The notes under the pieces: generated by a model
Seen by the model: the letters and a program-made list of their open reading frames with translations, nothing else
What the model was told of the DNA's origin: nothing
Database searches by the model: none
Program-made: the position numbers and the translations under genes
DNA from: Myroides albus
Lineage (GTDB): Bacteria; Bacteroidota; Bacteroidia; Flavobacteriales; Flavobacteriaceae
Length of the DNA: 64,000 bases
Assembly: GCF_009711045.1 (NCBI RefSeq)
Contig: NZ_WMJX01000002.1
Coordinates: forward strand, 1 to 64,000
Direction: 5' to 3'
Part shown: in pieces, positions 1-51,000 of the stretch
Layout: every line of letters begins with the position of its first letter
Position numbering within the stretch: position 1 is the first letter of the stretch

Positions 1-490
1 AATTTAAGCTTCCATCATCAAATCAGGTAATTGATCATTCAATTTCACATTAATAAATAATTTTAATTAAAAACACAGAAAGCATTGTAAAATTAACCTA
101 AATAAATATATTAATACATAAAAAATACACTTAAATAACAAATATTAAAAAACTTAGAAAGGAAGTTCAGATTAACATCTTTGTTCTATGAAGGAATACA
201 ATAAGTTTTAAAGAATAATGCTATCAGAATACTTAGCAGAGCATTCAAATAGATTAATCTCACTATCCCTATGCTCTTTGCTAATATTAACTTCAACTAA
301 GTTAGCAAGTCCACTATTTGATAGTATAACAAAAGAGTAAAGTCAATCTTTCTGCTATCATATTCTTCACTTTTATTAATCGTATCTACTTATTACACTA
401 ATAATACACATAAAAAACACTCAATAACTAACTATTAATCAACACCTAAAGAAATAATGTGTTTTTTCATCAAAAAAACATCATTTAAAA
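1..490. other. Gene-free AT-rich stretch before tRNA-Leu
   Basis: I see no credible reading frame on either strand. The only structure noted is an imperfect inverted repeat, TTAGCAGAGCAT at 233-244 against ATGCTCTTTGCTAA at 271-284, with a two-base bulge in one arm. It has no T tract, so it is not an obvious terminator. A gene upstream of the window may end here, but nothing in the sequence shows it. Confidence 0.5.
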
Positions 491-522
491 GTTGTGTGCT
501 AAAATATTACATTCTATATTTG
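491..522 (+). promoter_or_regulatory. Bacteroidota-type promoter of tRNA-Leu
   Basis: TTG at 492-494 is followed after 20 bases by TATATTTG at 515-522. This matches the primary sigma consensus of Bacteroidota (TTTG, about 19 bases, TAnnTTTG). Transcription would start near 529, leaving a leader of about 35 bases before the tRNA at 564. Confidence 0.75.
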
Positions 523-563
523 CACTCGCAATACAGAACAACTATTGTAGTCTACATCAAGAC

Positions 564-649
564 GCTCGGGTGGTGGAAGTGGTAGACACGCTGGACTTAA
601 AATCCAGTGGGTAGTAATGCCCGTGCGGGTTCAAGTCCCGCTCCGAGTA
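564..649 (+). tRNA. tRNA-Leu (anticodon UAA)
   Basis: An 86-nt class II tRNA. The acceptor stem GCTCGGG pairs with TCCGAGT with G-U pairs at both ends. The anticodon stem CTGGA/TCCAG encloses CTTAAAA, so the anticodon is TAA (Leu, reads UUA/UUG). There is a long variable arm (GGGTAGTAATGCCC), and the T arm is GCGGG-TTCAAGT-CCCGC. The discriminator is A649. CCA is not encoded. It has its own promoter upstream and a terminator directly after it, so it is a single-gene unit. Confidence 0.95.
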
Positions 650-652
650 CTA

Positions 653-689
653 AAGACCTAAACGACGAATCGTTTAGGTCTTTTTTTTT
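653..689 (+). terminator. Rho-independent terminator after tRNA-Leu
   Basis: AAGACCTAAACGA and TCGTTTAGGTCTT form a 13-bp perfect stem with loop CGAA, followed by a run of nine T. It starts four bases after the tRNA. Confidence 0.93.
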
Positions 690-716
690 ACCTTAAAAGA
701 TAAGCACAGAGTATCC

Positions 717-1271
717 CTAATAAAAAAAAATGATCACTAAGCTACAAACGACTAACCAGTGTAGTTTGATATAAGTACTTACATTTGCCTGATCATTTCC
801 TTCTCTATTATCCCTAAGTTTTTGTAATTGACTCATAGATTCTAAATTCTTCAGCACCTCCATGTCTCTTTCTTGTATACAAAGCACAAAAGATTCTATT
901 TCTTCCCTCTCCTGATTTAGAAATTGCTGTAATGGTCTAATAGGAAACTCATATAATACAGCTACTAAATCAACAATGACAATACCAGGCCTTTTCGTTT
1001 TTCCAAGTATAAAGTTCTGAACTGGCTTCAACTTGGATAAGTCAAAACTATCAAATTGTCGATCTATTGATCTTGATTCTTCTAAACCAAAGAAAGTACT
1101 TATAATTTTCTGATCTAATCTAACATTACTTCCCTTATAAACTCTCTTTGAAAGTTCTTTAATCCGCTTTGGTGAGGGCGAAAGATAATAATCTTCCTTT
1201 CCTTCTTTAATCTTTGTCTGTATATAAAATTGTACTGCTTCAATATAAGCCTGTGAAGTATTCTCTTTCAT
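717..1271 (-). CDS. Unknown protein with C-terminal membrane anchor
   Basis: 184 residues. I do not recognise the family. About 160 soluble, charged residues come first (Lys/Arg-rich near 25-50; hydrophobic stretch IVIVDLVAVLY near 98-108). A single hydrophobic segment at about 167-184 (HWLVVCSLVIIFFY) ends the protein, so it looks tail-anchored with the bulk in the cytoplasm. There is no signal peptide. The ATG at 1271 directly follows the TAA of the 45-codon gene upstream (TAAATG), so the two are probably co-translated. It is divergent from the repeat lipoprotein at 1477. A shared role with the kinase cluster is only inferred from position. Confidence 0.7.
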   Translation of the reverse strand: MKENTSQAYIEAVQFYIQTKIKEGKEDYYLSPSPKRIKELSKRVYKGSNVRLDQKIISTFFGLEESRSIDRQFDSFDLSKLKPVQNFILGKTKRPGIVIVDLVAVLYEFPIRPLQQFLNQEREEIESFVLCIQERDMEVLKNLESMSQLQKLRDNREGNDQANVSTYIKLHWLVVCSLVIIFFY

Positions 1272-1409
1272 TTATGTGGAATTATTAGAATTATCGGAAT
1301 AATTGGAATGACACTTCTCTACTTCTGTATTACTAAGGGTTCTTTGTTGCGAAACATGAGCAATGCAGTATGTGAAAACCATAAATGAAATAAGAAAGGG
1401 CTTATTCAT
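1272..1409 (-). CDS. Small secreted or membrane peptide (45 aa)
   Basis: A short frame that standard length cut-offs miss. It starts at ATG 1409, with an AGAAGG purine run 7 bases upstream (GAGAAGGATAAATG), which is unusual in this phylum. It ends at TAA 1274-1272, immediately before the ATG of the 184-aa gene. The product begins MNKPFLISFMVFTYCIAHVS, a plausible uncleaved signal anchor or signal peptide. It continues with a polar tail rich in Ser, Asn and Thr and a lone Cys near residue 33. No family is recognised. It could be a peptide that works with the tail-anchored protein, or a leader ORF that sets its translation. Confidence 0.5.
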   Translation of the reverse strand: MNKPFLISFMVFTYCIAHVSQQRTLSNTEVEKCHSNYSDNSNNST

Positions 1410-1476
1410 TTATCCTTCTCATACTTCCCTTCATTTCTCAGAGTACTAATAAAAACACTTTAATACACATTAGAAT

Positions 1477-1992
1477 ATGGTACGCAAAACATATCGAATT
1501 TTAATACTGCTAAACCTCAGCTTACTAACATTAGTAAGTTGCGAGAAAAGCGAAATAGAGGAAGGTATTCCAACACAAAATCTAAACAAACAAAATAACT
1601 CAGAAAATTCCGATGAGCCTTACGGGTTTCCTCCTCAAAGTCAAAAATCACCTTTGGGAATTGATATCGATACAGACGAAGCTCCTGAGAAAGATTGGGG
1701 ATTACCGCCGATTAAACCACCAACAAGACCTAAGTCAATTGGAACCGATATCGATACAGAAGAAGCTCCTGAGAAAGATTGGGGATTACCGCCGATTAAA
1801 CCACCAACAAGACCTAAGTCAATTGGAACCGATATCGATACAGAAGAAGCTCCTGAGAAAGATTGGGGATTACCGCCGATTAAACCACCAACAAGACCAA
1901 AATCAATTGGAACCGATATCGATACGGAAGAAGCTCCCGAGAAAGATTGGGGATTACCGCCGATTAAACCACCGACAAGACCTACAAAATAG
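1477..1992 (+). CDS. Lipoprotein made of four 28-residue acidic/proline repeats
   Basis: 171 residues. The signal peptide ends in lipobox LVSC with Cys at about 22, so it should be lipidated and exported. A short Asn/Ser-rich linker follows, and then from about residue 61 four near-identical units of 28 residues with core GTDIDTEEAPEKDWGLPPI followed by KPPTRPKS. A degenerate half unit (DEPYGFPPQS) precedes them. There is no enzymatic domain. The signal peptide identifies this frame; other frames across the array stay open only because the period is a multiple of three. It lies 62 bp before the TPR sensor kinase on the same strand, which suggests one transcript. It could be a surface spacer, a metal-binding Asp/Glu repeat, or a multi-copy peptide precursor. 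Confidence 0.8.
   Translation: MVRKTYRILILLNLSLLTLVSCEKSEIEEGIPTQNLNKQNNSENSDEPYGFPPQSQKSPLGIDIDTDEAPEKDWGLPPIKPPTRPKSIGTDIDTEEAPEKDWGLPPIKPPTRPKSIGTDIDTEEAPEKDWGLPPIKPPTRPKSIGTDIDTEEAPEKDWGLPPIKPPTRPTK
1657..1986 (+). repeat. 84-bp tandem repeat, four copies
   Basis: Units start at 1657, 1741, 1825 and 1909. Units 1 and 2 differ at three bases and units 2 and 3 at two; unit 4 has a few more changes, mainly at its 3' end. Each unit contains GATATCGATAC. The period keeps the frame, so unequal exchange or slippage can change repeat number without breaking the lipoprotein. Confidence 0.97.
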
Positions 1993-2054
1993 ACATTGTA
2001 AGTCACACTAGTTTTGAGCTTTTATCAATGCTAATTTATCTGTAAATTCGAAGA

Positions 2055-3794
2055 ATGAAATTAAAGCGCTACTTTTCATCTTCGAATTTACTCTTATATG
2101 CTATATTGTGTATAGCATTATGCCTTAGTTGCTCGAAAAAAGACAATCCAAATCTGGAAGAATCTAATCTCTTAGGCCGACAATATACAGCACAAGCTGA
2201 CAGTCTCTTTGATTTGGGTGCCTTGGAAAAAGCATTTGAGTTATATCTTCTATCCAATCAAGAACTCAGGGAGATAAATGATCATGAAATGATTACTTAC
2301 AACAATCTCAAGATTGCCACTATCTATCTAACAATTGGAGATGCTAATAGCGCACAAGAAACCATTGCGAAGGAACTTTACTATATCAAAGAAGATGACA
2401 CAAGCTTACAGATATACTCCAATTTAGTTCTGTCTTTGAGTTATACGGAACTCCTTGATTTTGAAAATGCCATTGAATATGCAAAAAAATCACTTGCGAT
2501 AAGTAATGATAAAGAACATCAGATCATCACCAAAAACAATATAGGCTATTTACTCATCGAGAATAAACAATATAAAGAAGCTGAAGAAATCCTTTCCCAA
2601 GTTTTACAGGAATATAAAGACAGTATTAACCCTACTGATTTAGCCAAAATATACAATAACTTAGGGAAGGCAAAGTACAGAATTAACAAAGCAAGTGGTA
2701 GAGATGAATTGTCCTACGCGCTTAAACTAAGAGAAAAAGAAAATGACAAATACGAACTTGTAAGTAGTTATATCGCTCTGAGTGAGTACTACAGCGACAA
2801 AGATGCCAATAACGCATTAAACTACGCTAAAATGGCTTATGAACATATAGAAGACATAAGTAGCAAGAAAGAAAAACTAACTATTCTCGAGATCCTCATA
2901 AACAATAGCGCTATAAATCACCCTATATACAAAAAAAGTGTAACCGATTATATCGCACTCTCTAATCAATTTCACGTTGAAACACAGTTATCGAAAAATC
3001 AATTTGCAAAAATTAGATACGACTACGACAAACACGCCAAAGAAAACAGCAAGCTGAAATACAATTTACAAGTCAAAAACACAACCATAACCAAGCAACA
3101 CAATACAGTATTAGTACTTGTCTGCGTACTCTTGCTAATCCTCCTTGTTGTAACCATTGTCTATTCTAAAATAAAAAAGAAACACATAGTAGAAAAAGGT
3201 AAACAAGTTTATAAAACAGAGAGTAGGATTGCCAAAAAAGTCCACGATGAATTAGCTAATGATATTTTCAACACGTTGATTTACACACAAAACTTTAATC
3301 TACAAGACCCTGAAAAAAAAGAACACCTAATTAAAGATTTAGACGCGATTTACAAAAAGTCGAGAAACATAGCTACTCAATTGAACTCTATCGATACCGA
3401 AGTCAACTTCACTCAGACGCTGACAAACTTATTCAATGAATACACAAGTGAAAAGACTAAAATCATCATCACAGGGATAGACAATATTGACTTCAGTATG
3501 CTGGTAAAAATTCAAAAAATCACCATTTACAGAATCTTACAGGAACTTCTTGTCAATATGACAAAACACAGCATGGCTACACTTGTTGTATTCAAGTTTA
3601 CAAAAGAAGCAAATGGAATCTCAATATACTATAAAGATAACGGCATAGGACTTATCTACGAAGATATTAAAAAGAAGAATGGAATTTCCAATATGGAATC
3701 CCGCATAGAAAATATAAAAGGATATATTATTTTTGACAGAGAAAATGAGATTGGCACAAAACTTTCAATCTACATACCCTATAGATATGTTTAA
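2055..3794 (+). CDS. TPR-containing sensor histidine kinase (lipoprotein)
   Basis: 579 residues. The N-terminal hydrophobic segment ends in CLSC (Cys about 26), a lipobox-like site. Helical TPR-like repeats fill about 40-310, followed by a short coiled region. A transmembrane helix lies at about 350-371 and is followed by Lys-rich residues. The H-box is RIAKKVHDELANDIFN with the likely phospho-acceptor His397. The ATPase part has an N-box (QELLVNMTKHS), a G1-like DNGIGL and a G2-like GISNMESR, ending at 579. This is the usual Bacteroidota TPR kinase of the HisKA_3-like class, with the TPR part outside the inner membrane. The stop overlaps the response regulator start by 8 bp. Its ligand is unknown; the repeat lipoprotein just upstream is a candidate input. 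Confidence 0.88.
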   Translation: MKLKRYFSSSNLLLYAILCIALCLSCSKKDNPNLEESNLLGRQYTAQADSLFDLGALEKAFELYLLSNQELREINDHEMITYNNLKIATIYLTIGDANSAQETIAKELYYIKEDDTSLQIYSNLVLSLSYTELLDFENAIEYAKKSLAISNDKEHQIITKNNIGYLLIENKQYKEAEEILSQVLQEYKDSINPTDLAKIYNNLGKAKYRINKASGRDELSYALKLREKENDKYELVSSYIALSEYYSDKDANNALNYAKMAYEHIEDISSKKEKLTILEILINNSAINHPIYKKSVTDYIALSNQFHVETQLSKNQFAKIRYDYDKHAKENSKLKYNLQVKNTTITKQHNTVLVLVCVLLLILLVVTIVYSKIKKKHIVEKGKQVYKTESRIAKKVHDELANDIFNTLIYTQNFNLQDPEKKEHLIKDLDAIYKKSRNIATQLNSIDTEVNFTQTLTNLFNEYTSEKTKIIITGIDNIDFSMLVKIQKITIYRILQELLVNMTKHSMATLVVFKFTKEANGISIYYKDNGIGLIYEDIKKKNGISNMESRIENIKGYIIFDRENEIGTKLSIYIPYRYV

Positions 3795-4455
3795 AAAGAT
3801 ATTAGTAGTAGAAGATTATGACAGTATAAATGTAGGTATTGTTACAGCACTTTCTGAGAAGTACAGTGCCGAAATATACAATACCAAATATTGTGATGAC
3901 GCTTGGTTGAAAATTCAAAATGCGCACTTAAATTCATCTCCCTTTGATTTGATCATTACTGACTTGTCCTTTGAACAAGATTATCGCGAACAAAAATTAG
4001 AAGGAGGTATTGACTTAATTGAGGTAATCAAGGCCAATTATCCTGATACCAAAATAATTGTTTATTCAATAGAGAACAGATACATAGAGATAAACACTTT
4101 AATAGAAAAGTTAAAGATTGACGCTTATATCAGCAAAGGTCGCAACAGTATCAATGAACTCCATCACGCTATTGAACACATACAATCAACCCCAAACTGT
4201 TATCTATCACCAGATATAGAGGACATAACTACTACTTCAACTGCTTTGATACTTTCTGACGAAGATCTGGAGATTATCAGTTTACTATCCAAGGGCTATA
4301 CACAGCAAGAAATCAGTGCAGTTTTTAAATCCAAATCAAAAACGATCAGTAGTACAAGTAGTATAGAAAAGAGAATTGGAAAATTAAAACTCTCTTTTGA
4401 GGCGAAAAACACAATACACCTTGTCAGTATTGCAAAAGACTTAGGACTCATTTAA
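3787..4455 (+). CDS. Response regulator, REC plus LuxR-type HTH
   Basis: 222 residues from ATG 3787. The receiver domain is about 3-135: acidic ED near residues 8-9, phospho-acceptor Asp59 in DLIITDLSF, and conserved Lys117 in YISKGR. A LuxR/FixJ-like helix-turn-helix lies at about 160-215 (LSDEDLEIISLLSKGYTQQEIS). An in-frame start at 3733 exists, but its extra 18 residues precede the normal REC beginning (MFKKILVVEDYD) and lie inside the kinase gene, so 3787 is preferred. The 8-bp overlap with the kinase indicates translational coupling and a cognate pair. Targets are not visible; the flanking lipoprotein and small membrane protein are candidates. Confidence 0.88.
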   Translation: MFKKILVVEDYDSINVGIVTALSEKYSAEIYNTKYCDDAWLKIQNAHLNSSPFDLIITDLSFEQDYREQKLEGGIDLIEVIKANYPDTKIIVYSIENRYIEINTLIEKLKIDAYISKGRNSINELHHAIEHIQSTPNCYLSPDIEDITTTSTALILSDEDLEIISLLSKGYTQQEISAVFKSKSKTISSTSSIEKRIGKLKLSFEAKNTIHLVSIAKDLGLI

Positions 4456-4559
4456 TTCTAATTTAACAAGAAAAAAACATCCCAATTATGGTTTTCCGTA
4501 CCATAGTTAATTTGAGTTGTCATAATTTAGCATTGAAAACAAATAGCTTTATTTAAAAT

Positions 4560-4910
4560 ATGTTCAAATTGAGACAAGTTGTTATTGTATGTTTAATTCT
4601 AATCTTTAGTATGCTGTGTGTCAAAATAACTTGGAATTTTATCGATGAAAAAAAACAGCAAAGAACAACAGCTGATCAAGAAATAAGCCTACTTCTATCA
4701 GAATACGAGAACAACATACACAACTACGTCAAAGTGTACAAAAAAGCTCTGAATGGCGATAGAACAAGCCTTAAGAAGTATTCTTCATTCATGTTGAAAA
4801 ATGCTGAAATAGAGCAAAGGTTAAATCACTTATTCCTTCAAACAGAGAATGGCGATTACCACAAGAATCAATTTAAAAAACTTCAAAACAAGTTTTTGAA
4901 TCCTAACTAA
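4560..4910 (+). CDS. Small membrane-anchored protein, unknown function
   Basis: 116 residues. One N-terminal hydrophobic segment at about 7-28 (VVIVCLILIFSMLCVKITW) has no good lipobox. It is followed by about 85 charged, probably helical residues rich in Lys, Glu, Asn and Gln. No family is recognised. It lies 104 bp after the response regulator on the same strand. A short inverted repeat, TATGGT/ACCATA at 4487-4505, sits in the gap, so it may be separately controlled. It shares a bidirectional terminator with clpX. Confidence 0.65.
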   Translation: MFKLRQVVIVCLILIFSMLCVKITWNFIDEKKQQRTTADQEISLLLSEYENNIHNYVKVYKKALNGDRTSLKKYSSFMLKNAEIEQRLNHLFLQTENGDYHKNQFKKLQNKFLNPN

Positions 4911-4922
4911 TATTATATTACC

Positions 4923-4953
4923 AAAAAAGCGATAGATTAATCTATCGCTTTTT
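4923..4953. terminator. Bidirectional terminator between the small membrane gene and clpX
   Basis: AAAAAGCGATAGATT and AATCTATCGCTTTTT form a near-perfect hairpin with an A run on one side and a T run on the other, so it can stop both converging transcripts. Confidence 0.9.
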
Positions 4954-4964
4954 ACATTTTATCC

Positions 4965-6206
4965 TTATACAGAAGCTTGAAGTTTCTGTAGTAAATTCTT
5001 ATTTAATGCTTGTTCAGTATACTCTCGATCAACATGTAGTTCTTCAACGTGATCCTGACTTGGCAATTCATACATAGCATCTGTCAAAATAGCTTCACAT
5101 AAAGACCTAAGACCACGAGCCCCTAATTTATATTCCAATGCTTTATCCACAATGTAATCCAAGGCATCCTCTGAAATTGAAAATTTAATATGATCCATTT
5201 CAAACAACTTCTCATATTGCTTTATCAGTGCATTCTTAGGTTCAGTCAAGATTGATCTCAAAGTTTCTCTATCCAAAGGATCCATATAAGTCAATACAGG
5301 TAATCGTCCGATAATCTCCGGAATCAAACCGTAATCTTTAATATCTTTTGGTACTATGTATTGCATTAGGTTTGTCTTATCTACCTTTTCATTCTCTTTC
5401 GTAGCGTTATATCCAACAGCTTGGAAATTTAAACGTTTAGAAATAATGCGTTCAATACCGTCAAAAGCACCACCAGCAACAAACAGAATATTCTTTGTAT
5501 TAACTTCAATAAACTTTTGGTTAGGGTGTTTACGACCACCTTCTGGCGGAACATTCACAACACTTCCCTCTAAGAGTTTAAGCAAAGCTTGTTGCACTCC
5601 TTCTCCTGATACATCACGTGTAATAGAAGGGTTATCACTCTTACGAGCAATCTTATCGATCTCATCAATAAAAATAATCCCTCTTTCAGCGCGATCAACA
5701 TCATAATCTGCTGCCTGCAACAACTTAGTCAAGATACCTTCTACATCCTCTCCTACGTATCCTGCCTCAGTTAGAACTGTTGCATCAACAATAGCCAAAG
5801 GAACATTCAACATACGAGCGATTGTCTTTGCCACTAACGTTTTACCAGTACCAGTTTGCCCTACCATTAAGACATTACTCTTCTCGATTTCAACATCACC
5901 TTCTTCACTATTCGCTTCTTGCAAAAGGCGTTTATAGTGATTATAGACTGCAACGGACATTACTTTTTTAGTTTGATCTTGTCCAATCACATATTCATCT
6001 AAAAAAGCTCGAATCTCTTTTGGTTTTTTTAGTAATAAATCTTTAGCTAAACTTTCCAGCTCCTTCGCTTCTCCATCCTCCTCAACAATTCCGAATGCCT
6101 GCTCAACACATCTATCACAGATATGAGCATCTATACCAGCAATAAGAATATTCGTTTCTGACTCAGGGCGCCCACAGAAAGAACATCTCATTTCTTCTTT
6201 CGCCAT
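4965..6206 (-). CDS. clpX: ATP-dependent Clp protease ATP-binding subunit ClpX
   Basis: 413 residues, normal length. The zinc-binding domain has Cys8, Cys11, Cys30 and Cys33. The AAA+ module has Walker A GQTGTGKT at about 116-123, Walker B IIFIDEID at about 177-184, and a sensor/arginine-finger region with the ClpX-type motif LNFQAVGYN near 260. ClpX is the hexameric unfoldase that feeds substrates to ClpP. It lies 7 bp after clpP and after tig in the same direction, the common tig-clpP-clpX order. The ATG at 6206 gives the standard start of the zinc domain. Confidence 0.98.
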
Positions 6207-48000: not shown

Positions 48001-51000
48001 TCACCTTTAGTGGGATTTCAATTTGGTAATAGTTGTCAACTAAATCATTACCAATTCGCACGAATGCAACAGCCTCATCATCTTTCAAAACAGCAGTTCC
48101 TCCATTTTCAATTCCCTCTGCGTGTATAAACATTTTTAATCGCTTGTACTGACGCATGTCAACATTGAAGTTTTTATACACAGCCCTTGCATCACCAGGT
48201 GCCAAACCAGCAGTATTACTTTGCAAGTCTTTCGAGTAGATTTTCATTGCTAAAGACTGCTCATTTTGATTAATCAATGTATTGTTCATATACATCTGCT
48301 CTTGGCGAACCCCAGGAGGAATAACGTAAGGAATTGGCTTACGTGAATAATTGTCTTGAATATTTACTGAAGTTACATCAAAAGCAGCCTTTGTACTTTC
48401 CTTTTCTTCTTCATATTCACTTCCTTCTTTATTAAAGTCAGAATAATCTCTATCCGATTTTCTCCAATCAGAACGAATTAAATCTAAACTTCCAAAACGC
48501 AAAGTTATCTGATCTCTGAAGCCAGTAACGAACATACGCATAAAGCGTATTGAACGCATATCTATTTCGAAAGGTGTACTTTGCTCTGAATCCTTATTCT
48601 TTTGTCCTTTACTTTTCTTATTGATACCATCTATATTCTCACCATTGTTATCAATTGGCACCTTAAATTGAATCCAGCGCACTGGTGCTACTGACCCATC
48701 TGCCAACTGCGTAGTAGTTTCCCTAACATCTACAACATATTTATCTTTAACTGTCATATTAGGCTTAATCTCAATTCCATATTGAAAGTAAGCATCAATA
48801 GTATTCATTGTATTATCCCCATCAACATCCTCTGCATCTGGTTGATTATTTCCCGCACGACTTCCACCTGCTGGACTATTTCCTTCCACTCCATTATAAT
48901 CTCTATACCTTTCCAAGATTCCACCTTCTGCATCTAAATAGTGAACAAAATTATCTGCTGCTGGATCAGCTAAATGGGCAAAATCAGGGAACCATATTTT
49001 TTCCTCCTCATCACTTAATCCATCCAAACCAACGTCTTGCATCCTTCTATTATCAGCATTCGTATCAAATGCATAAATCAAAGAAGGTGCTGCTGGTACT
49101 TTCCCCCATGCAGTATTGATTATACTATTTTCACTCAGACTTGAAGTTGGCAATCCATTTTCATATTGCTTATATCCATCTCTAAGAATATCTTCTGAAA
49201 TCAATCCAAAGTTTAACTTCAATTCACCAATATTTCCTTGATTTGCTACGCCATTTGCTCCTCCTACATAAGGATCCATTAACCAAAATTCCAATGCTTC
49301 AATATTAGCCTGCTCAAAATTCGAAGTACTTAAACTTCTCATAATCCCCGCCCAATTCTTCTCTGGTGTATTTGACAAACGAGAAGCTTTAAAGTCTGGA
49401 TTGAAGTTATATATCCCTCTCTCTTTTGGATAATAAGTTAAATCTAGTGTAGTGATAACCCTACTTTCTCCATAAGCAATATCTTTGTTGGGAAACAACT
49501 CCTCACTGTATACACGACGTGTAACATTTGAAGACAAATCATACTCAGTCACACCATTGGGTCTTGATCCAACATAAAAAGCTGGATCAATCGTATACCA
49601 TGATAATTTTGCTCTTCTATAACCATCTTCTAAACGTCCTACTCTTCCCTTGCTATTATTGCCTTCTAAATAGCTTGGTATCCTATTGTCATCGCTATCT
49701 TTAAAATAAAAACCTTTTGGTACACTTGCTAACTTCCACGCATGAGGACTTTTGACGTCAATTGTAGATTGAGTTCCCTCAAAATCATCAACATAAGAAG
49801 TAGCTTCACCATTCATTTGATCCAATTTAGAAGAACCTGGTTGCAAATAAGCAAATTCACCTCTAAATGAAATTCGAGATTCTGCGTCTGTATCTATATT
49901 GGGAAGTTTATTGACTAAACGAGTAAAGAAAGGTACTTCAGTAGAATATTGAGCGTTAAAACCCCATATTGTATTATTCACAGCTTCTTCTCCATAACTT
50001 GATTTATGAGTCATAGGTCGTTCAGACAGACGCAAATAAGTACCTCCTACGATGAAGTCTTTACTAAATTTGTGTTCAACGTTAAATCCGAAAAATCGCT
50101 TTGTCTGTTGACCAAACATAGTGTTATTTTCAACAGAAACATCAATAGGAGTATTAGAGGCTAATAGAGCTTGATCTAAAATCATCACTCGTCCTCTATT
50201 GTAATCAACAGTATAATCAGCACCTTCAATTAAAACTCGTCCACCTGCTTTCACTACAACGGATCCTGGTGCAACGTTAAATGCTCCAATAGGAATTCCC
50301 TCTCCCATTGTACTTGAATACTTACCTTTTAATTGAAACTTATTCTTCTGACTTTGACTGCGGATAGCTGAGGCTTTTGTCCCTGTATATAATTCTCTAA
50401 AGACATACTTCTCTTGATTCTTATTATAAGAAGTCTTGACATCATAATCCGAATTATCAAGAGGTCCACTCTTTAGTTGATTAAATAAATGTTCTCCAAA
50501 AGGCTCTACTGTTGTAAAAATAATACGCCCATTTACAGCATCGATTGTTATACCATCAAATGTATTTCGACCATACTGATTGTAATTACTATTGCCATAG
50601 CCACCGCTATTTCCATAACCTCCATTATTGCCGAAACCACCGTTATTACCAAAGCCACCGTTATTACCAAAGCCTCCATTATTACCAAAACCATTGTTAT
50701 TACCATAACCACCGTTTCCTTGGTTATTGTAACTATTATTTCCCATATTAGCATTGGGATTATTGGGGTCATAGACATTTTGCATACTTCCATTAGCAAG
50801 AAAGTCAAAGAATCCATCTCCTCCTGCTTGTGGGTCATTCGTATAATTCAATCTATCAAGATTAAAAACCTTCAGTAAAGGTGTTTTTTCAACTCCTTCT
50901 GGTAAAGGTTTTCCATCGACAGAACTAATATAATTTAATGGACTTGGGTCTGTATATAAAATATTAAATCTAAATCTATCTTGGGTAATATATGAAGCAT

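Follow-up and report, generated by a model that had tools for sequence, protein, structure and literature searches.

A short lipoprotein encoded upstream of a TPR sensor kinase in Myroides albus is a candidate ligand of a two-component system

The 64,000 nucleotides analysed here (positions 1 to 64,000 of contig NZ_WMJX01000002.1, assembly GCF_009711045.1, Myroides albus; hereafter the window) encode a lipoprotein with four internal repeats, directly followed by a sensor kinase with a tetratricopeptide repeat (TPR) region and by a response regulator. What does the lipoprotein do for the kinase? The initial annotation had proposed that the two form one signalling unit, and the neighbourhood of related kinases supports this: a short exported protein precedes 51 of 80 named kinase relatives and 24 of 28 relatives from other genera, and strong matches to a profile of such proteins are rare elsewhere (71 of 76, among the matches listed, lie at a kinase). 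We consider it probable that the locus is a lipoprotein-partnered two-component system, in which the tail of the lipoprotein is the ligand of the adjacent TPR kinase and works like QseG on QseE.

The lipoprotein (1477-1992, plus strand, 171 aa) is the candidate kinase ligand and has counterparts upstream of related kinases. A signal peptide with the lipobox LVSC and Cys22 (1477-1542) was read from the sequence, and the mature start, CEKSEIEE, in part resembles a surface export signal. Cys22 is followed by a linker of about 35 residues and by four units of 28 residues each (1648-1731, 1732-1815, 1816-1899 and 1900-1983), which end in the core DWGLPPIKPPTRP. Tandem Repeats Finder gave a period of 84, 3.8 copies, 97% matches and a score of 602, the highest among its 12 rows for the window. 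The four units had been described as nearly identical; their coordinates were confirmed, and the description fits three of them best, since the protein is identical across units 2-4 (with 1-5 nucleotide differences) and unit 1 differs by five residues. For the lipoprotein, no Pfam or NCBIfam family (QseG and NlpE domains included) was found above the cut-off.

A similar core is present in the Myroides-like relatives. The lipoprotein upstream of the closest kinase relative (genome G122) has three units of the form DHDWGHPPIKPPK, and the unit number is two in Myroides sp. N17-2, three in M. marinus and four in the metagenome-assembled genome (MAG) Pcu381_bin47. The number of units is variable in these relatives; the core D-[WL]-G-x-x-P-I-x-P-P is retained. 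In Flavobacterium and other relatives the upstream protein has 49-81 aa and a single tail, e.g. GPGDDPINVKPPKK or SGQTPLPPPKH, and within a genus the tails are conserved. The repeats of the window are the single tail of the relatives multiplied, a Myroides-like elaboration. Repeats as a general rule were rejected, and with them the expectation that repeat-containing lipoproteins always precede this kinase clade, since most relatives are single-tailed and one clade of the kinase has no lipoprotein at all.

The kinase gene (2055-3794, plus strand) starts after a gap of 62 bp. Its product comprises a signal peptide with lipobox, an extracytoplasmic TPR region, a transmembrane helix, the histidine box HDELAND (His397) and an ATPase domain, whereby the TPR part is located between the lipobox signal peptide and the hydrophobic, transmembrane-like stretch. 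Both the lipobox Cys26 and the HDEL box with His397 are invariant in 30 of 30 aligned kinases. In Pfam, the TPR family PF13424 was above the cut-off (E 9e-11), HATPase_c (E 4e-4) remained under the curated cut-off (21.1 vs. 26.4 bits) and HisKA_3 left a trace only (E 0.25). The histidine box, the ATPase domain and the adjacent regulator of a HisKA_3-type system are all present. The regulator gene (3787-4455, plus strand) begins with an ATG at 3787 and overlaps the kinase gene by 8 bp. The receiver domain scored above the cut-off, GerE (LuxR) reached E 0.15 only, and no sigma-54 activator domain was among the domains listed by the family search. Of the kinase with coupled LuxR-type regulator in the initial annotation, the lipobox, the TPR region and the coupling by overlap therefore stood, and the LuxR part is weak. 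The regulator had tblastn matches in 128 of 146 loci, window copies and duplicates being counted.

To what extent do lipoprotein and kinase belong together in other genomes? The kinase was present in 155 of 249 Flavobacteriaceae genomes searched and, at E ≤ 1e-30, in 78 of 150 genomes of the same GTDB genus. The nearest named relatives, two from Myroides and one from a Flavobacteriaceae MAG, match with 43-48% in the best segment; the closest relative in the same-genus search, from G122, matches with 47%. The 80 named kinase relatives with their surrounding loci formed the main sample. Loci with a short exported protein upstream were termed peptide-positive (51 loci) and the other 29 peptide-negative. 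Among the exported proteins, 48 are lipoproteins and three lack the lipobox Cys. Those lipobox proteins that a sequence scan detected end 37-478 bp (median 56) before the kinase. The peptide-negative loci comprise 23 without such a protein, five with a sequence which we read as a decayed remnant, and one (L046) which is cut at a contig end, has hardly any sequence upstream and was assigned to the negatives. For the final count of 51, ten matches to the lipobox pattern were discarded by hand as spurious (L077 and nine representing a neighbouring gene, which we take to be AhpD-like), the match of L052 was replaced by the real open reading frame (ORF), and the exported proteins without lipobox from L045, L054 and L088 were added.

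A scan for lipobox ORFs of 40-200 aa ending ≤ 700 bp upstream gave hits for 58 of 80 kinases vs. 20 of 167 other large ORFs of those loci. When at least three prolines were additionally demanded in the last 14 residues, the numbers were 48 of 80 vs. 0 of 167. In a tree of 81 kinases, the peptide label changes eight times vs. a mean of 24 for shuffled labels, and a clade of 12 rows is entirely without lipoprotein. Several members of this clade lie near a gene which is presumably AhpD-like. They are possibly listeners or kinases with a different input. Locus L183 (3271-8572, genome G048), which is part of this clade, carries three tandem TPR kinases and one regulator, and no lipoprotein.

In other genera, the 28 best-scoring loci were considered; 24 encode a short lipoprotein (example tails are ATEGDDGDPITPPPPGG and CCGEDGHIPPPPPIGG). 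Beyond the family the kinase is rare, as it was found at E ≤ 1e-50 in 9 of 149 class-wide genomes, four of them in Flavobacteriaceae including the genome of the window. Of five loci outside the family (L228, L229, L230, L232 and L233), two have an upstream secreted protein and three have none. The upstream proteins of L228 and L229 are secreted, apparently non-lipidated, and end in IRPPKP or PPPLVKP. The suggestion that any TPR kinase has such a partner was rejected: for a second clade (found with the L177 query in 86 of 101 genomes), we read a lipoprotein as plausible in only 7 of 30 loci, and the three other TPR kinases of the window genome (L242-L244) are without an obvious lipoprotein. With these searches, the lipoprotein-kinase neighbourhood was examined across Flavobacteriaceae, as the initial annotation had suggested.

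For the genome-wide search, a profile was built from 35 upstream proteins of Flavobacterium and Paenimyroides and run on 150 genomes. Among the matches listed at E ≤ 1e-10, 71 of 76 are located less than 1 kb upstream of a listed kinase on the same strand. The other five comprise one at a contig end, two which lie 1.7-1.9 kb upstream of a kinase with its own match, and two about 11 kb past another kinase. At E ≤ 1e-6, 79 of 102 matches listed are upstream of a kinase, and 78 of the 150 listed kinase places have a profile match at E < 1e-6. As the profile was itself trained on proteins from upstream of kinases, what counts is how few strong matches lie elsewhere. Several weaker matches lie 200-450 bp before kinases of the second clade. 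One locus of this clade (L177:6268-7490, genome G060) has six tandem genes for lipoproteins of 57 aa before the TPR kinase and its regulator. All six share the same last ten residues, TDPIIIPKKD; here the tail is multiplied through gene copies and not through internal repeats.

Two further elements, which the initial annotation did not mention, accompany the lipoprotein. Divergently to it, a membrane protein gene, here named divA, is encoded on the minus strand (717-1271, 184 aa). Full-length DivA proteins have an N-domain, one predicted transmembrane stretch and a conserved C-domain with the motifs CMxWxxDHYE ... VWYxK ... GxHPETGKxLKPIT. The window copy stops after the transmembrane helix, beside a tRNA gene; the N-domain and the adjacent repeat array are retained. 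Pfam and PDB searches with divA gave weak, scattered matches only and no family above chance. Just upstream of divA, a direct-repeat array of four units, GGAAT-N4-AGAAT-N4-GGAAT-N4-GGAAT, is present (1278-1309, plus strand), which is a candidate operator.

For divA, tblastn matches were obtained in 41 of 143 other loci, some of which were fetched twice. A divergent homologue upstream was found in 49 of 51 peptide-positive vs. 1 of 29 peptide-negative named loci, whereby the queries include rows from the same loci. Among 61 genomes, 25 have a divA match and all 25 also have the kinase; the kinase occurs without divA match in 10 (Fisher's exact test, 3e-9). Among the matches listed, 33 of 42 divA places are divergent and ≤ 1.8 kb from the kinase and nine are orphan short copies; the pairing is based on 34 listed kinase places, and one divA gene is counted twice among the 42. 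These orphan short paralogues are not located at the module and come from nine different genomes, e.g. G048:C1:220553-220996. The divA query from L089 missed the window copy at E ≤ 1e-8.

The array, defined as at least three units with one mismatch allowed in each, was found in 36 of 51 peptide-positive vs. 0 of 29 peptide-negative loci and in 6 of 381 control segments. Its position relative to divA was measured in 34 loci; in 31 of these, it begins about 10-71 bp ahead of the divA start. In the window genome, the array of the window is the clearest, and three units with one mismatch are matched at two further sites. The array as a site of a genome-wide regulon was rejected, as with two mismatches 21 matches were obtained vs. 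13 for the reversed control pattern. Taken together, divA, the GGAAT array and the acidic mature start described below travel with the lipoprotein and not with the kinase; divA and the array are also lost together with it.

At least two acidic residues at positions +2 to +6 are present in 47 of 49 lipoproteins (those of 48 named loci and that of the window), in 8 of 73 kinases and in 16 of 48 other lipoprotein-like ORFs. The excerpted text of PMC5080379 gives C-X-K-(D/E)2-X in Capnocytophaga and SDDFE in Flavobacterium johnsoniae as signals for lipoprotein export to the surface. Three named Myroides-like relatives fit CxKDD and the window start, CEKSE, fits in part. Sorting of the lipoprotein to the outer membrane, and probably to its surface, is predicted from these motifs. 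Lipid anchoring is not universal, because three named relatives (L045, L054 and L088) are without lipobox Cys.

A partial Mantel test was performed on 45 pairs, without the three multi-repeat rows and the window. The correlation of tail and TPR given the catalytic domain was 0.36 (0 of 2000 permutations as high) and that of tail and catalytic domain given TPR was -0.05. The divergence of the tail follows the divergence of the TPR region, not of the catalytic domain.

For structure prediction, two relatives in which lipoprotein and kinase are in frame (L041 and L089) were translated through the stop codons, set as Gly, and the resulting lipoprotein-TPR fusions were modelled with AlphaFold. Across both models, the TPR blocks have a predicted local distance difference test (pLDDT) of mostly 84-98, with mostly 91-98 in L041, and ordered tail blocks have means of 61-75. 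In the L041 fusion, which has four units, only lipoprotein residues 54-73 (GNTPITPPKKPKSIKEEQEN, the core of unit 2 plus linker) are not below pLDDT 50 (block means 63 and 75). In the L089 fusion, which has one tail, only residues 24-26 and 33-46 escape values < 50, and 33-46 are exactly the tail GPGDDPINVKPPKK (block means 66 and 61). Alignment depth was compared in L089: the N-terminal residues 1-12 are covered by 17-18 rows and the tail by 16-18, yet the former have a pLDDT of 33-42, and the stretch 47-58 after the tail is aligned as deeply (17-18 rows) but remains < 50. The L089 model has only two bridge residues, 26 and 329. According to both models, hardly any part of the lipoprotein other than the tail is ordered beside the TPR superhelix, and a grip of the TPR region on the tail is predicted. 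Foldseek and VIA-align, applied to homologous ectodomains, ranked LGN-peptide complexes, Rap, NprR and many other TPR proteins; these matches show the fold class only, because the repeat fold matches many proteins. Extended peptides are the ligands of Rap, NprR and LGN.

The observations described support a ligand-receptor pair with the tail as ligand, acting anchored, in transit or released. In the preferred reading, the short lipoprotein would hold its C-terminal tail, which is proline-rich and present fourfold in the window, on a disordered linker. The tail would bind the extracytoplasmic TPR superhelix of the neighbouring kinase, and tail occupancy would set kinase activity and thereby the output of the overlapping response regulator. 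Sorting to the outer membrane, and probably to the surface, is predicted from the acidic residues directly after the lipid-bearing Cys. Given this predicted sorting, the kinase would therefore read the amount of tail that it can reach in the periplasm, be it prior to or during export or following release. At the promoter region shared with the lipoprotein gene, divA and the GGAAT array are likely a feedback part, and multiplication of the tail within one protein, as in Myroides-like species, may provide a higher ligand dose or avidity.

Several points weigh against this reading. If the tail is sorted to the surface, it lies in another compartment than the periplasmic sensor, and only transit or release would bring the two together. 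Of the 24 lipoproteins from other genera, only 10 show at least three prolines in the last 14 residues; the remaining ones have acidic or Gly-rich tails, in which ATEGD or a similar string is frequent, and from the sequences a single tail motif common to the whole family is not established. This share of proline-rich tails in other genera, under one half, has made us lower our confidence slightly, and we still hold the reading to be probable. No profile match at E < 1e-6 was found at 72 of the 150 listed kinase places, including the window and peptide-less kinases; since the latter are among them, kinases can exist without the lipoprotein. In the covariation analysis, the signal peptide used as control also tracks the TPR region (0.27) and the catalytic domain (0.31), with 0 of 2000 permutations as high. 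Because it follows both domains about equally, the evidence is the contrast between the domains, not the correlation itself. The fusions are artificial tethers, with stops as Gly and the signal peptide of the kinase included, the pLDDT of the tail is only moderate, and in L041 residues 62-79 are covered by only 2-3 aligned rows, as the alignment splits single tails over two repeats. Finally, the divA copy of the window is without its C-terminal domain.

The separation of tail and sensor would be accounted for by a trafficking guard similar to NlpE-Cpx, in which a block of export or maturation leaves tails in the periplasm and switches the kinase on. The acidic residues at +2 to +6 in 47 of 49 lipoproteins, similar to the export signal in the excerpt of PMC5080379, agree with such a guard, and NlpE, as far as it is described in the excerpt of PMC6538781, is a precedent for a kinase reading one lipoprotein in transit. 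The exported proteins of L045, L054 and L088 without lipobox Cys and the apparently secreted proteins of L228 and L229 fit poorly, and a guard does not need fast diversification of the tail. We regard it as possible, if somewhat doubtful.

The tails might also be peptide pheromones: released from surface lipoproteins by cleavage, they would pass from cell to cell and be sensed by the TPR kinase, with multi-copy tails raising the output. Tails differ from genus to genus and from one paralogous module to the next, and they track the TPR domain; they are amplified within the protein (window) or as six tandem genes (L177), and kinases without peptide exist. The same three states are found in RRNPPA systems, according to the excerpted text of PMC9765709. 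However, the lipid anchor is retained in 48 of 51 named positives, and a peptide of 13-20 residues would have to pass the outer membrane inwards. The idea of the initial annotation that proteolysis releases repeats, which then act as a diffusible signal, has so far found no support, and we consider a pheromone unlikely. We think it similarly improbable that the system is a Bacteroidota counterpart of Rap-Phr as a whole, in which clade-specific surface-lipoprotein tails would be read by membrane TPR kinases, with multi-copy senders, peptide-less listeners and DivA as a new regulator acting on the GGAAT operator.

The lipoprotein might also be a target or a mere neighbour of the system, e.g. an envelope component under its control, and not the ligand. 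Its gene lies beside a divergent promoter region with a direct-repeat array, and co-localisation by itself does not show binding; the tail-specific ordering in two AlphaFold models, the covariation of tail and TPR region and the location of 71 of the 76 strong profile matches listed at a kinase speak against it, and we rate this explanation as unlikely, too. A structural surface protein located before an unrelated kinase by chance, which had been held equally possible and with which the four repeats and the acidic start of the mature protein would agree, is highly improbable, as a chance neighbour was ruled out by the lipobox and proline scan (48 of 80 vs. 0 of 167) and as the synteny counts, the co-loss with divA and the array and the predicted ordering of the repeat motif contradict it.

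Which known system is closest to a tail acting as ligand of the kinase? By analogy, QseG-QseE is the closest functional precedent. In the excerpts of PMC6075780 and PMC12691602, the outer-membrane lipoprotein QseG of E. coli activates the kinase QseE, and QseF is linked to sigma-54 promoters. As in QseEGF, the lipoprotein gene lies next to the kinase and regulator genes, in one operon with them; QseG acts with its C-terminal part on the extracytoplasmic part of its kinase, and a corresponding action is predicted for the window lipoprotein. In contrast to QseEGF, the window has a TPR superhelix as sensor, a short, disordered and multipliable tail, a NarL/LuxR-like regulator, and divA with the array. 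The QseG domain and the sigma-54 regulator of the QseEGF family proper were not among the domains listed for it. NlpE-Cpx also uses one lipoprotein as kinase input, according to the excerpt of PMC6538781, as is proposed here. No NlpE-type domain is listed for the window lipoprotein. NlpE is a folded protein and is not known to be encoded beside cpxA.

In RRNPPA systems, the excerpt of PMC9765709 mentions several pheromones on one propeptide, several similar propeptides, and receptors without propeptide. The window resembles Rap-Phr and NprR-NprX (PMC10075063, in excerpt) in that a TPR receptor is encoded beside a small exported precursor, with multi-copy precursors and orphan receptors among the relatives. 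Homologous ectodomains match the TPR fold of Rap and NprR at the level of the fold class only, and an exported protein is encoded adjacently, its role as propeptide being putative. Unlike the cytoplasmic RRNPPA receptors of Firmicutes, the receptor of the window is a membrane kinase whose TPR region is extracytoplasmic, and in most loci the precursor is a lipoprotein. LGN/Pins, the best Foldseek matches, likewise hold long extended ligands in a TPR superhelix but are eukaryotic cell-polarity proteins without kinase. The catalytic half of the kinase resembles UhpB, LiaS, NarX and DesK, but scores far below the curated NCBIfam cut-offs, and the sensor part is another one. Membership in the QseEGF, NlpE or RRNPPA families is not claimed for the window system.

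In the vicinity of the module, a tRNA-Leu gene (564-650) adjoins the end of divA; in an Rfam search of positions 1-5200, it was the only match. Downstream of the regulator, a small protein with a signal peptide or transmembrane segment is encoded (4560-4910, plus strand), whose membership in the module is unsure; relatives were found in 11 of 146 loci, two of them window copies. It is related to a lipoprotein in the same place in G122 and in a few other genomes. Farther away, an 18-bp tandem repeat of about seven copies (50590-50716) possibly represents, as judged by eye, a Gly/Asn-rich coding repeat on the minus strand. A contig scan of genomes with the single window kinase as query gave no relative in 32 stretches.

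The arrangement of a lipoprotein tail and a TPR kinase is not described in the titles and abstract openings of the literature searched, and it is not named in the corresponding parts of papers retrieved on surface-lipoprotein signalling and on RRNPP outside Firmicutes. Bacteroidota envelope papers, searched by term, contained no mention of histidine kinases or two-component systems. Together with the lipoprotein, a co-inherited membrane-protein family, DivA, comes into view, for which no known relative was found in the Pfam and PDB searches. If the preferred reading is true, a TPR-tail type would be added to the few known lipoprotein-activated kinases. A ligand for such kinases did not turn up in the titles and abstract openings of the literature searched; here, one is suggested by genetics. 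The question of what these kinases sense becomes testable in a laboratory species, because each kinase clade has a short tail as candidate ligand that can be synthesised.

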